Shown: one piece after another, positions 59,816 to 64,000 of the stretch
Layout: each line of letters starts with the position of its first letter
How positions within the stretch are numbered: the stretch's first letter is position 1
NCBI RefSeq assembly: GCF_900113765.1
Contig: NZ_FOQO01000010.1
Coordinates: forward strand, 186,001-250,000
Source of the DNA: Parapedobacter indicus
Lineage (GTDB): Bacteria; Bacteroidota; Bacteroidia; Sphingobacteriales; Sphingobacteriaceae
Length of the DNA stretch: 64,000 nt
Direction of reading: 5' to 3'
Position numbers and translations under genes: made by a program
Notes under the pieces: model-generated
What the model was told of the DNA's origin: nothing
The model's database searches: none
Seen by the model: only the letters and a program-made list of their open reading frames with translations

Positions 59816-62800
59816 ATGAAAATTCTTAGTAAAAATGCCGTGCTGGCTCTCCAATTGGCTTTTCTTTTGACATTATGGGCATGCCAGCAACCAACGGCTG
59901 ATTATGATACGTTAACGGAAGACGAAAAGCGCTTGCCTGAAAATGCGGTGCTCGGGCTCGAGGCAGCCTCTGGTTTGCAGGTGAAATTGATGGCATCAGA
60001 ACCGCAGTTAGTGAACCCAACTAATATCGAAGTAGATGACCGCGGACGGGTTTGGGTAACCGAGGCGTACAATTACCGGCCGGCGTTGAATGGAAACCCT
60101 ACGACGGATGCAGGAGACCGCATACTTATTTTCGAGGATACCGATCACAACGGCACGTTGGATAAGCAGACGGTTTTCTATCAGGGACCGGAAATCAATG
60201 CGCCGCTGGGAATCTGCGTATTGGGAAACCGCGTCATTGTATCGCAAAGCCCATATGTATGGGATTTTTATGACGACGACGGTGACGGGAAGGCAGACCG
60301 GAAAGAAATTCTTTTTCAGGGCACCGGCGGAGAACAGCATGACCACGGTGTGCACGCGTTCGTTTTCGGCCCGGATGGTAAATTATATTTTAATTTCGGA
60401 AATGAATGCCACACGTTGCAGGACCGAGAGGGCAATGTTGTGCGGGATCAGGATGGGGATGAAATAACGAATAAAAAGTACCGGCAGGGCATGGTGTTCC
60501 GATGCGATATCGATGGTACAAACGTGGAGGTGCTGGGCCACAACTTCAGGAACCCGTATGAACTGGCGGTAGATAGTTACGGTACCATCTGGCAGAGTGA
60601 TAACGACGACGACGGAAACCGGGGTGTGCGTATCAACTATGTGATGGAATATGGCAATTACGGGTATACGGACGAGCTGACGGGAGCTGGTTGGCGCAAA
60701 GAACGGGTGAATCTGGAGGACTCCATTCCGCTGCAGCACTGGCACCTGAATGATCCGGGCGTGATTCCCAATCTGCTGCAAACGGGTGCTGGTTCACCGA
60801 CCGGAATAGTGGTTTATGAAGGTGCAGCGCTTCCCGCGGTATATAGGAACCAACTTATCCATGCCGATGCGGGGCCCAACGTAATTCGATCGTATGCCAT
60901 TGAGAAAGAGGGGGCGGGCTACCATGCAGAACTAACAGAACTGCTACGCGGAAAAGACCGATGGTTCCGGCCGTCTGACGTATGCATTGCTCCGGATGGT
61001 TCCCTGATCCTTGCAGACTGGTATGATCCTGGGGTAGGCGGGCACCAGGCAGGCGACCAAACACGGGGGCGGATTTATCGTGTGGCACCGTCGGTGTCGG
61101 AATACCAGGTGCCCGCGCAAGACTATTCGACGATCGAGGGATCGATCGCGGCGCTACAAAGCCCTAATCTGGCGGTTCGGTACAAAGCTTGGACCAGCTT
61201 AGTGCATCGAGGGAAGGAGGCGATTCCTGCCTTGGAAAAGCTGTTTCATAGCCAAGGTAACGATCGGATGCGGGCGAGAGCACTGTGGCTGCTTACCAAG
61301 ATCGACTCCGGCGACCGTTACCTGCTGGAAGGACGGAACGATGACAACCCAGATATCCGGATCGTGGCCATCCGTGCCGCGCGCCAGGCGGGCGTGGATC
61401 TGGTGTCCTTTCTCATGCCGTTGGTAGAAGACTCGGATATGCAGGTAAAACGGGAGTGCGCGCTCGCATTACGCCATGTAACCGATTCCCGGGCGGCAGC
61501 GTTATGGGCCAAGTTGGCTGGACAGCACGAGGGAAGGGACCGCTGGTACCTGGAGGCGCTAGGAATCGGTGCCGCCGGGCAGTGGGATTCGTTTTTTGAC
61601 GCTTTTCTCCAAGGAAATGAACAGCCGATGAACACCCCCGGAGGACGAGATGTTATCTGGAGGTCGCGGACGGAGGCAGCTATTCCGATACTGACGCGCC
61701 TCGCCGTCGATAATAGGGAAACCTTGGAGTCACGTCTGCGCTATTTCCGGACATTCGATTTTATGCCGGAAAGAAGCAGATCGGACGCCTTGTTCGCGAT
61801 GCTAACGGATCAGTCGGTTCACGGGGCTTTGTCGGTGAATGGGGTTCTTTTCCATATGCTTGACCCAGAGAAAGTCCTGCATTCAGCACCAGCCAGGCGT
61901 GCACTCCATGCAGTCCTCGATTCGTTGGCTGGCAAGGCGGCGTATCTCTCGCTGGTGGACAGGTACGACCTAGTCTCCGAAATACCGGCTTTATCGCAAA
62001 TGATTACTGCGTCAGCGAGTCCCGAAAGGGAAAAAGCGCTTGGCCTATTATTCCGCTTTGGGGCTACAGAGCAGATCAAGGCAGCGCTGGTAGCGGTACC
62101 CGACAGCCTGGTGGTGGCCACCGGAACCATCGGTACGGAAAATGCAGTTGATCTGTTAAAGGATTTACTGCTATCGCCTGCGTCGCCGGCAAAAGTAAAA
62201 ATGCTTTCCGCTGCAGCATTGGGGCGGACTGAACGAGGCGAAGAGGCTGTGCTGGCGCTGTTGCAGTCAGGTGCGGTCCGGGAAGAACTTATTCCCGAAC
62301 TGGTGGAAGGTCTTCAGAATACACCAAGAGTGGATCGGTATACGGAAGCTCGCCGGTTCCTGCCGGACAGCGAGGAAGCAAGCACCGGAATAGAACGTGA
62401 GAAAGGCGCCGCCTTGACTTCCGAGGAACTACTTGCAGCGAGCGGCGACCCCGAGAAAGGAAGTACACTGTTCCAGACTCACTGCGCGCTTTGCCATGAG
62501 GTGAACGGCAAGGGGCATGATTTCGGACCAAAACTTTCGCAAATAGGGGCTAAATTGCCAAAGACCGCATTGCTGGATGCGATCGTTGATCCCACTGCCG
62601 GAATCAGTTTCGGCTATGAGACATCCTCCATAACGCTAAAGGACGGTTCCGAATTGATGGGGATTGTTTCCAGCAGGACAGAAACCGAAGTAGAGGTCAG
62701 ATTTGTGGGGGGCGTTTCGCGGAAATTGATGGCCAAGGATATCGCGTCTGTTGAAAACAAGAAAGTATCCCTAATGCCTCCGCTGGCAAAGGCAATGTCC

Positions 62801-62848
62801 AAAGGGGACCTGATTGATCTCATTGAATACCTGGCATCGTTGAAGTAG
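59816..62848 (+). CDS. PVC-type propeller-HEAT-cytochrome c lipoprotein
   Basis: This is a 1010-residue lipoprotein (lipobox LWAC, Cys23). The N-terminal 420 residues form a PVC-type beta-propeller dehydrogenase domain (GLQVKLMASEPQLVNPTNIEV, DHGVHAFVFGPDGKLYFNFGN, LGHNFRNPYELAVDSYGTIW, DADAGPNV-like HADAGPNVIRS and ILADWYDPGVGGHQAGD). HEAT-like helices follow (about 440-860). The C-terminus is a cytochrome c domain with CALCH (Cys890, Cys893, His894). Such proteins are linked to oxidation of sugars or other organics in glycan-degrading bacteria. It has its own gap on both sides and is not obviously part of the adjoining loci. Confidence 0.85.
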   Translation: MKILSKNAVLALQLAFLLTLWACQQPTADYDTLTEDEKRLPENAVLGLEAASGLQVKLMASEPQLVNPTNIEVDDRGRVWVTEAYNYRPALNGNPTTDAGDRILIFEDTDHNGTLDKQTVFYQGPEINAPLGICVLGNRVIVSQSPYVWDFYDDDGDGKADRKEILFQGTGGEQHDHGVHAFVFGPDGKLYFNFGNECHTLQDREGNVVRDQDGDEITNKKYRQGMVFRCDIDGTNVEVLGHNFRNPYELAVDSYGTIWQSDNDDDGNRGVRINYVMEYGNYGYTDELTGAGWRKERVNLEDSIPLQHWHLNDPGVIPNLLQTGAGSPTGIVVYEGAALPAVYRNQLIHADAGPNVIRSYAIEKEGAGYHAELTELLRGKDRWFRPSDVCIAPDGSLILADWYDPGVGGHQAGDQTRGRIYRVAPSVSEYQVPAQDYSTIEGSIAALQSPNLAVRYKAWTSLVHRGKEAIPALEKLFHSQGNDRMRARALWLLTKIDSGDRYLLEGRNDDNPDIRIVAIRAARQAGVDLVSFLMPLVEDSDMQVKRECALALRHVTDSRAAALWAKLAGQHEGRDRWYLEALGIGAAGQWDSFFDAFLQGNEQPMNTPGGRDVIWRSRTEAAIPILTRLAVDNRETLESRLRYFRTFDFMPERSRSDALFAMLTDQSVHGALSVNGVLFHMLDPEKVLHSAPARRALHAVLDSLAGKAAYLSLVDRYDLVSEIPALSQMITASASPEREKALGLLFRFGATEQIKAALVAVPDSLVVATGTIGTENAVDLLKDLLLSPASPAKVKMLSAAALGRTERGEEAVLALLQSGAVREELIPELVEGLQNTPRVDRYTEARRFLPDSEEASTGIEREKGAALTSEELLAASGDPEKGSTLFQTHCALCHEVNGKGHDFGPKLSQIGAKLPKTALLDAIVDPTAGISFGYETSSITLKDGSELMGIVSSRTETEVEVRFVGGVSRKLMAKDIASVENKKVSLMPPLAKAMSKGDLIDLIEYLASLK

Positions 62849-63126: not shown

Positions 63127-63134
63127 TACCTTTG
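63127..63134 (+). promoter_or_regulatory. -7 promoter box TACCTTTG for carA
   Basis: TACCTTTG is an exact TAnnTTTG match. Transcription from about 63140 would give a leader of about 164 bases before the carA ATG, long enough for the upstream ORF and hairpin described here. A -33 TTG is not clear; the upstream region is A/T-rich. Confidence 0.6.
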
Positions 63135-63164
63135 TCCCTCGTGAAATTTGGAGTACATTGCTTC

Positions 63165-63311
63165 ATGACGAAATGCCCCAAGCCCGGAAATGTTTCCGAC
63201 ATATCTTGCATTTTTAACCGTTTTTGGCCCGTTGAGGGCTTTTTTTATGAACGTATGTACAGACCTTATCAACATAGCAAACCATCAACAACAGGAATAA
63301 CGAATGACTAA
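63165..63311 (+). CDS. 48-residue leader ORF upstream of carA
   Basis: The ORF begins about 25 bases into the predicted transcript (MTKCPKPGNVSDIS...) and ends with TAA at 63309-63311, overlapping the carA start (ATGACTAA). Codons 21-28 run through the terminator-like hairpin. In size and layout it resembles the E. coli pyrL leader peptide of pyrBI (44 residues, attenuator inside it). No protein-family features are expected or seen. Whether it is translated is unproven. Confidence 0.45.
   Translation: MTKCPKPGNVSDISCIFNRFWPVEGFFYERMYRPYQHSKPSTTGITND
63227..63246 (+). terminator. Hairpin plus U-run in the carA leader (attenuator candidate)
   Basis: GCCC-GTTGA-GGGC followed by seven T residues forms a compact intrinsic-terminator shape; a G-T pair can extend the stem. 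Two U-rich runs (63211-63215 and 63221-63225) precede it. The GGGC strand could instead pair with upstream GCCC at 63175-63178 or 63182-63185, an alternative that would prevent the hairpin. Confidence 0.5.
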
Positions 63312-64000
63312 CTACAGCAAACTTCCGGCGATTTTGTTATTGGAAGACGGAACCGTCTACCATGGCAAGGCAGCGGGAAAGATTGGTACCACGACGGGCG
63401 AGATCTGTTTCAATACAGGTACTACGGGTTACCAAGAGATTTTTACCGACCCGTCTTACTACGGGCAGATTATGGTCACCACGAATGCCCACATTGGCAA
63501 TTACGGCATAGCGGGAGCCGAGTCTGAGTCAAACCAGATTCAGATTGCGGGGCTAGTCTGCAAAAATTACAGTGTAAATTACAGCCGCAAAATGGCTGAT
63601 TCGTCGATCCAGACCTACTTCGAAGACGGCAAACTGGTAGGCATCTCTGATATCGACACCCGTTCGCTGGTACGCCACATTCGCGACAAAGGGGCAATGA
63701 ATGCCATCATTTCTTCGGAAATACTGGATGTGGACACACTGAAAGAAAAATTGGCAGAAGTGCCTTCGATGGCAGGGTTGGAATTGTCGTCAGTAGTTAC
63801 CACTGAAACCCCCTATTACTATGGCAACGAGGATGCGCCGCTTCGCGTAGCCGTATTGGACCTGGGCATAAAGAAAAACATCCTGCGTAATTTCGATGTA
63901 CGGAAAGTATACGCCAAGGTATTTCCAGCAAAGACATCATTTGCCGAAATGGATGCCTGGGGTGCCGATGGTTATTTCGTTTCTAACGGTCCCGGCGATC
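63304..64000 (+). CDS. carA: Carbamoyl-phosphate synthase small subunit, 3' end cut by window
   Basis: CarA is the glutamine amidotransferase subunit that delivers ammonia to CarB for carbamoyl phosphate, feeding pyrimidine and arginine synthesis. The 232 visible codons cover the N-terminal domain: PAILLLEDGTVYHGKAAG, GEICFNTGTTGYQEIFTDPSY, TNAHIGNYGI, ISDIDTRSLVRHIRDKG, and the start of the amidotransferase domain (VAVLDLGIKKNILRNF, GYFVSNGPGD). The catalytic Cys and His lie beyond the window. The leader contains a possible attenuator. Confidence 0.95.
   Translation, partial: MTNYSKLPAILLLEDGTVYHGKAAGKIGTTTGEICFNTGTTGYQEIFTDPSYYGQIMVTTNAHIGNYGIAGAESESNQIQIAGLVCKNYSVNYSRKMADSSIQTYFEDGKLVGISDIDTRSLVRHIRDKGAMNAIISSEILDVDTLKEKLAEVPSMAGLELSSVVTTETPYYYGNEDAPLRVAVLDLGIKKNILRNFDVRKVYAKVFPAKTSFAEMDAWGADGYFVSNGPGD

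Follow-up and report, generated by a model that had tools for sequence, protein, structure and literature searches.

The pyrE attenuator of Escherichia coli lies behind orfE/rph, an ORF whose stop falls just a few bases ahead of the stem of the terminator. At pyrBI of the same bacterium, a leader ORF (pyrL) runs through an intrinsic terminator and has U-rich sequence ahead of it. Excerpts from two papers describe how tight coupling across this leader prevents the terminator (PMC5021804) and state that neither a hairpin nor other RNA structure is believed necessary for the pause in pyrL (PMC9291695). The carAB operon of E. coli is controlled at initiation, among other means by UTP-dependent reiterative transcription at P1; at P2, according to the same excerpt, attenuation does not act (PMC6245113). 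Pseudomonas aeruginosa has a leader peptide before carA and controls the gene by pyrimidines, possibly through attenuation (excerpt of PMC4997734), and Polynucleobacter (SRC-12-1) has a candidate element, the carA RNA motif, right before the gene (excerpt of PMC8632094). The expectation that leaders of this kind are little described in the Bacteroidota was half right: our searches of open-licence papers turned up no account of attenuation at pyrimidine genes of Sphingobacteriaceae or of the leader reported here, but excerpts do contain a proposal of leader-peptide attenuation for amino-acid operons of Flavobacterium (PMC9723704) and a mention of leader-like small ORFs in Bacteroides (PMC7366714).

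The window, by which we mean the whole 64,000-nt stretch of DNA that was analysed, carries carA at 63304–64000 on the forward strand (PF00988, E 2.0e-47), and an enolase-like ORF comes after it. By CarA, the relatives of the window's genome among the named loci are Sphingobacteriaceae. The region before this carA resembles pyrBI in that a leader ORF passes through an intrinsic terminator with U-rich sequence ahead of it; it differs in that the gene is carA, that the ORF, which opens with GTG, is predicted to begin very close to the 5′ end, and that two covarying hairpins, the second of which has no place in the known pyrL scheme, lie inside the ORF. The leaders of Sphingobacterium recall pyrE, since their ORF also ends shortly before the stem; the ORF at pyrE, however, is a full upstream gene, whereas here it is a leader of about 24 codons. 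With E. coli carAB the locus shares the gene and, presumably, pyrimidine control; with P. aeruginosa, a member of another phylum, it shares a leader peptide before carA and, again presumably, pyrimidine control. The Polynucleobacter motif, compared by its description, is one extended imperfect hairpin and a proposed riboswitch, in contrast to the short hairpins inside an ORF that are found here.

Regions preceding carA were gathered from four sources: 9 genomes of the window's genus; 21 further loci from among the 30 listed by a family search in which 196 of 201 genomes had a match; 60 regions chosen from the table of that search; and 80 named loci, of which the first 44 fall within Sphingobacteriaceae and the remainder in other families. 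Group codes g1 to g25 were assigned by software, g1 being the window's genus and g16 Sphingobacterium; the named loci received their codes by name and likeness, with no computed assignment. From 135 family loci inspected, 129 were kept, comprising 119 distinct leaders, which are related by descent, so that counts over the 119 are not independent events. Left out before counting were five loci without a visible leader (four Solitalea-like loci of g4, and L074) and L090, which has no candidate leader. Because of these exceptions, the leader, recognizable in most sampled Sphingobacteriaceae genera, is not universal in the family. At the four g4 loci (L055, from Solitalea longa, and L114, L115 and L116), a −7 box TACCTTTG lies 7 nt before the ATG of carA, and carA itself seems to be near-leaderless.

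Promoter, open frame and peptide

A −7 box of the Bacteroidota housekeeping promoter, TACCTTTG, occupies 63127–63134 on the forward strand, in agreement with the promoter of the original prediction. Because the TAnnTTTG box sits at −12 to −5 in the excerpted Flavobacterium study that guided our placement (PMC9723704), transcription is predicted to begin near 63139, 2 nt before a GTG, a position that derives solely from that of the box. The box alone occurs 44 times in the window, with 42.05 occurrences expected, and shows no excess over chance; the box with GTGAA six bases on occurs once, with 0.02 expected.

The GTG at 63141, six bases after the box, opens a leader ORF of 56 codons plus TAA (63141–63311, forward strand) and is found in all 9 genus members. 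Translation most likely starts at this codon, on a message that would be nearly leaderless. The original prediction had a 48-codon ORF starting at ATG 63165, the ninth codon of the longer ORF and an ATG in 3 of the 9 genus members: its open frame was right, and its start and length were not. It was also correct that the end of the ORF overlaps carA, the frame ending at 63311 and the ATG of carA lying at 63304.

The spacing between box and start codon is conserved. Within the limits of a start-picking rule that permitted no spacings except those tallied here, the commonest arrangement among the 119 leaders is a GTG 6 nt behind the box (74 leaders), followed by an ATG 9 nt behind it (21) and a GTG 4 or 5 nt behind it (16); the remaining ATG starts lie at 11–13 nt (7) or 6 nt (1). 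Leaderless messages are infrequent, accounting for 5.5% of mapped mRNAs in the Flavobacterium of that study (excerpt of PMC9723704), and another excerpt describes Shine-Dalgarno sequences as naturally absent from Bacteroidota messages (PMC6847099).

The frame that begins at these starts is conserved as well: it is open in 116 of the 119 distinct leaders, compared with 47 and 30 for the other two frames and 41% in shuffles. The test covered the stretch between codon 11 and a point 20 nt short of carA (in Sphingobacterium, 12 nt short of the terminator); beginning at codon 11 avoids the stops that GTGA and ATTGAA create in the other frames. All members are open in 19 of 21 groups, the exceptions being g1 (8 of 9) and g13 (17 of 19). 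Of the 82 leaders from outside Sphingobacterium, 73 have their stop between −4 and +8 relative to the start of carA. Three others run into carA past the fetched bases, and six end at +44, −14, −15, −36, −105 and −148; the last of these (L075) contains another box as well, and the ORF belonging to that box stops at +8. The leader ORFs of L137–L142 (g20) and of L121 and L122 (g6) have 72–73 codons and end 1–3 nt before carA.

Is it the frame or the peptide that is conserved? We compared all within-group pairs at codons with a single change, for which about 23% synonymous changes are expected; the resulting counts are not independent. In g1, four members compared over the whole ORF gave 24 synonymous changes of 111, which is chance level, and all nine compared over the first 25 codons gave 139 of 373. 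The counts were 51 of 255 and 23 of 53 in two groups from Sphingobacterium; 22 of 56, 30 of 119 and 4 of 30 in three larger groups from g13; and 23 of 67 in g14. The 73-aa ORF of g20 changes like a protein (179 of 331; 126 of 224 over codons 32–73). Judged by these comparisons, it is the frame rather than the peptide that most genera keep; g20 is the clear exception, and its ORF is perhaps a leader peptide turned small protein.

The g20 counts would be explained if the peptide itself acted, for example through ribosome arrest or as a small protein. The motif PKPGN, present in 7 of the 9 genus members (the other two have PKPGS and PKPRN), and the count over the first 25 codons in the same genus speak for such a role. 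Leader peptides nevertheless differ from genus to genus, the whole-ORF count of four g1 members and the 51 of 255 in one Sphingobacterium group offer it no help, and three leader peptides, including that of L138 (g20), matched no Pfam family at E up to 5. We find an active peptide very improbable. As there was no Pfam match, we regard the leader as an analogue, and not a homologue, of pyrL.

Hairpins, U-rich tract and terminator

Two hairpins lie within the leader ORF, both on the forward strand. Hairpin 1 (63149–63165) pairs 63149–63154 with 63160–63165, and hairpin 2 (63185–63198) pairs 63185–63189 with 63194–63198. Covariation was assessed in an alignment of 40 of the 85 distinct GTG leaders, selected for good alignment, which favours a common structure; the 40 include 5 of 29 Sphingobacterium leaders and none from g14 or g5. 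In its 39 distinct rows, 90.9% of the cells in the two hairpins are paired, and 27 cells show changes on both sides; shuffling gives 6.2, and none of 500 shuffles reached the real count. Registers slid along the alignment are 25–50% paired, a comparison in which the real register has an advantage, having been taken from the alignment itself. The number of further standard pair types in the two hairpins showed no excess (13 versus 13.9 in shuffles). Hairpin 1 is absent from several Sphingobacterium leaders (L013–L018) and from 3 of 5 g5 leaders, and the hairpin loops vary in sequence.

Two covarying hairpins at a fixed distance are what one might expect if a protein, such as PyrR together with pyrimidine nucleotides, bound them and chose between termination and readthrough. 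Indeed, all 9 genus members encode PyrR. The variable loops nonetheless count against such a protein, as does the conserved open frame, which it would leave unexplained. In addition, searches run without a positive control revealed no PyrR-binding element (RF00515) in the window at the gathering score and none in 8 loci when E values up to 5 were allowed. We judge control by a hairpin-binding protein to be improbable.

Behind hairpin 2 lies a U-rich tract (63199–63225, forward strand) that contains five U's at 63211–63215 and again at 63221–63225 and that we propose as a pause region. U content peaks behind hairpin 2 in most groups and is weak in g14. A strong hairpin 2 occurs in 42 of the 60 non-Sphingobacterium GTG leaders; in 29 of these 42, representing 13 of 17 groups, the first run of at least four U's comes 9–13 nt behind the hairpin, where shuffles lead one to expect 7.0 (sd 2.3, largest 13; 300 shuffles). 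No Sphingobacterium leader of 27 has this spacing (shuffles: 4.6). In the his and trp pauses, the distance from hairpin to pause is about 11 nt.

The candidate intrinsic terminator follows at 63226–63246 on the forward strand: its sequence is GGCCC-GTTGA-GGGCT, with a short stem of five pairs (63226–63230 with 63236–63240) and a run of seven U's to 63246. In the window alone, such a hairpin is not beyond chance (1 seen versus 2.8 expected in 2 kb). It becomes convincing because relatives keep it: scans of the 119 leaders found a terminator in 9 of 9 members of g1, 37 of 37 of g16, 5 of 5 of g15, 1 of 2 of g17 and the single member of g19. No terminator was detected by these scans in 65 of the 119 leaders. 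A separate scan of 108 leaders agrees on the terminator groups, with shuffle rates of 0 to 0.05. A strict scan missed 4 of 5 g15 leaders and flagged 2 of 9 in g14, for which a relaxed scan gave 5 of 5 and 0 of 9; the scans overlooked L144 (g24), which has a visible 8-pair stem, a long loop and six T's.

In a quick CarA tree of 92 rows, from which g24 is absent, the rows with a terminator fall inside one clade of 44 (SH-aLRT 94); 43 of its members have a terminator and one does not, and the fewest changes that account for this are two. Given the 65 leaders without a detected terminator, the translated leader appears to be the older part and the terminator to have joined it later.

The same 65 leaders would be expected if the main control were translational coupling, with or without Rho: carA would be translated mostly by ribosomes finishing the overlapping leader ORF, untranslated leaders would be lost, and the terminator of one clade would be merely an added layer. 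The position of the stop, close to carA in most non-Sphingobacterium leaders, is also as such coupling would have it. It fits poorly with Sphingobacterium, in which 34 of 37 ORFs end before the terminator and well upstream of carA, and with the retention of the terminator throughout that genus and the window's own. All told, coupling as the main control seems to us rather unlikely.

How the ORF meets the terminator differs between these two genera. All 9 members of g1 have an ORF that continues across the terminator; in Sphingobacterium, the ORF stops 5–11 nt before the terminator stem in 34 of 37 leaders and passes through in the other 3. An excerpt of PMC4824070 reports an E. coli test in which termination fell from about 90% to less than 10% when a stop lay 5 bp ahead of a terminator. 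With either layout, a ribosome close behind polymerase would be able to silence the terminator. The Sphingobacterium layout also bears on whether the leader could be an amino-acid attenuator of the trp/his kind, responding to arginine. Although carA stands on both pathways and a leader ORF and a terminator are both present, attenuators of that kind keep more than 20 bp between stop and terminator (same excerpt, PMC4824070), far from the 5–11 nt seen here; inspection by eye revealed no run of arginine codons in the leader peptides, and no conserved antiterminator was found. We can hardly credit an arginine attenuator.

We also considered other RNA structures. The original prediction had pointed to upstream GCCC strands that might form a competing hairpin, but the AAGCCC strand occurs in 6 of the 9 genus members only, the other 3 having AAACCC or AACCC, and the hairpin was dropped as a conserved antiterminator. 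In the minimum-energy fold of the window's full-length leader, a long alternative structure replaces the terminator; as a computed structure, it may matter in the window's species. A riboswitch was rejected, as the leaders show no clear gain in stability over shuffles (for all groups of two or more leaders, the mean z lies between −1.6 and +0.8) and the hairpin loops vary. Sequestration of the start codon was rejected as a general feature: the leaders' own energies match those of shuffles (−7.47 and −7.60), and 9 of 119 reach p up to 0.05.

The comparison of ORF and hairpin among related genomes was the proposed check on the pyrBI-like idea, and the idea survived it. The U runs are present, the GC hairpin with its seven U's inside the ORF is kept across the genus, the parts are conserved as a set and the frame is open up to the terminator; the start, the ORF length and the GCCC hairpin had to be given up.

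Proposed coupling of ribosome and polymerase

Our preferred reading, held with moderate confidence, is that the leader acts by coupled attenuation, set by the distance between ribosome and polymerase and working like that of pyrBI and pyrE. Since the predicted 5′ end of the transcript lies only a few bases from the GTG or ATG, a ribosome could load there at once. Polymerase would then pause in the U-rich tract, aided by hairpin 2 and by low UTP. Were the pause long, the ribosome would catch up and cover the upstream arm of the terminator, and transcription would continue into carA; were UTP plentiful, polymerase would run ahead, the terminator would fold and transcription would stop. The overlap between the ORF stop and the ATG of carA would probably add translational coupling. 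Judging from gene identity and U content only, pyrimidine supply is the likely signal; that carA serves arginine synthesis too counts against a signal of UTP only.

Because so many leaders have no detected terminator, this mechanism can hold for part of the family only. The existence of leaders without a terminator suggests that the near-leaderless ORF, the hairpins and the U run came first and function by themselves, probably through a link of the first ribosome with both polymerase and carA. A broader history can be offered tentatively, as a possibility that we would not yet rely upon: an old, terminator-free pyrimidine sensor in which a pause at low UTP, caused by the hairpins and the precisely placed U run of a near-leaderless ORF, brings polymerase into step with the first ribosome and thereby couples the latter to carA, to which one clade added a terminator inside the ORF and in which Sphingobacterium shortened the ORF to end just ahead of that terminator, such that pyrBI-like logic arose independently in Bacteroidota.

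If coupled attenuation does operate here, ribosome-polymerase coupling is used for control in Bacteroidota, built on a near-leaderless start codon. The family would then provide a natural series (no terminator, an ORF through the terminator, and an ORF ending just before it) in which the parts are separable. Were the sensor indeed old, the evolutionary steps would still be visible in living genera.

Occurrence of the leader and long-range pairing

Searched with a model of the leader (R2), each of the 9 genus genomes yielded a single strong match, immediately upstream of carA; weaker matches had E above 1. At E up to 1, matches occurred in 42 of 61 genomes of the family. Those with E below 0.001 number 29: 28 are immediately upstream of carA, and for the remaining one (G061) the place of carA was unlisted. 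In an order-wide sample, 73 of 151 matched at E up to 0.1, and all 73 belong to Sphingobacteriaceae. The family and order-wide searches used strict filters, and a missing match in either is weak evidence. By eye, the pyrR-pyrB region of the window's genome has no such leader. One genome, G052, has two carA copies on two contigs (L042 and L043), with a leader at both; the duplicate may reflect strain mixture, the named record being a metagenome-derived genome.

A possible long-range helix, which could form only after readthrough, spans 63153–63260 on the forward strand (GTACAT at 63153–63158 with ATGTAC at 63255–63260). In Sphingobacterium, the first 36 nt of the leader pair better with the leader's own stretch of 40 nt behind the terminator than with the corresponding stretch of other species: the energy is −10.96 kcal/mol for own pairs and −8.35 for swapped pairs (11 clusters; 0 of 5000 permutations), and a control stretch showed no difference (−7.72 versus −7.73). 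The contrast is smaller for unbroken helices of at least 7, which were found in 13 of 37 own pairs compared with 22% of swapped pairs. Such species-matched pairing is weak in g1 (p 0.024 with nine rows, 0.49 with three clusters) and absent in g15 (p 0.77). Our guess is that the helix might shut the start of the leader once the decision has been made.

Upstream of the leader, the terminal domain of a 1010-aa ORF (59816–62848) carries a CxxCH motif (CALCH), which we take to be as in heme-binding c-type cytochromes.
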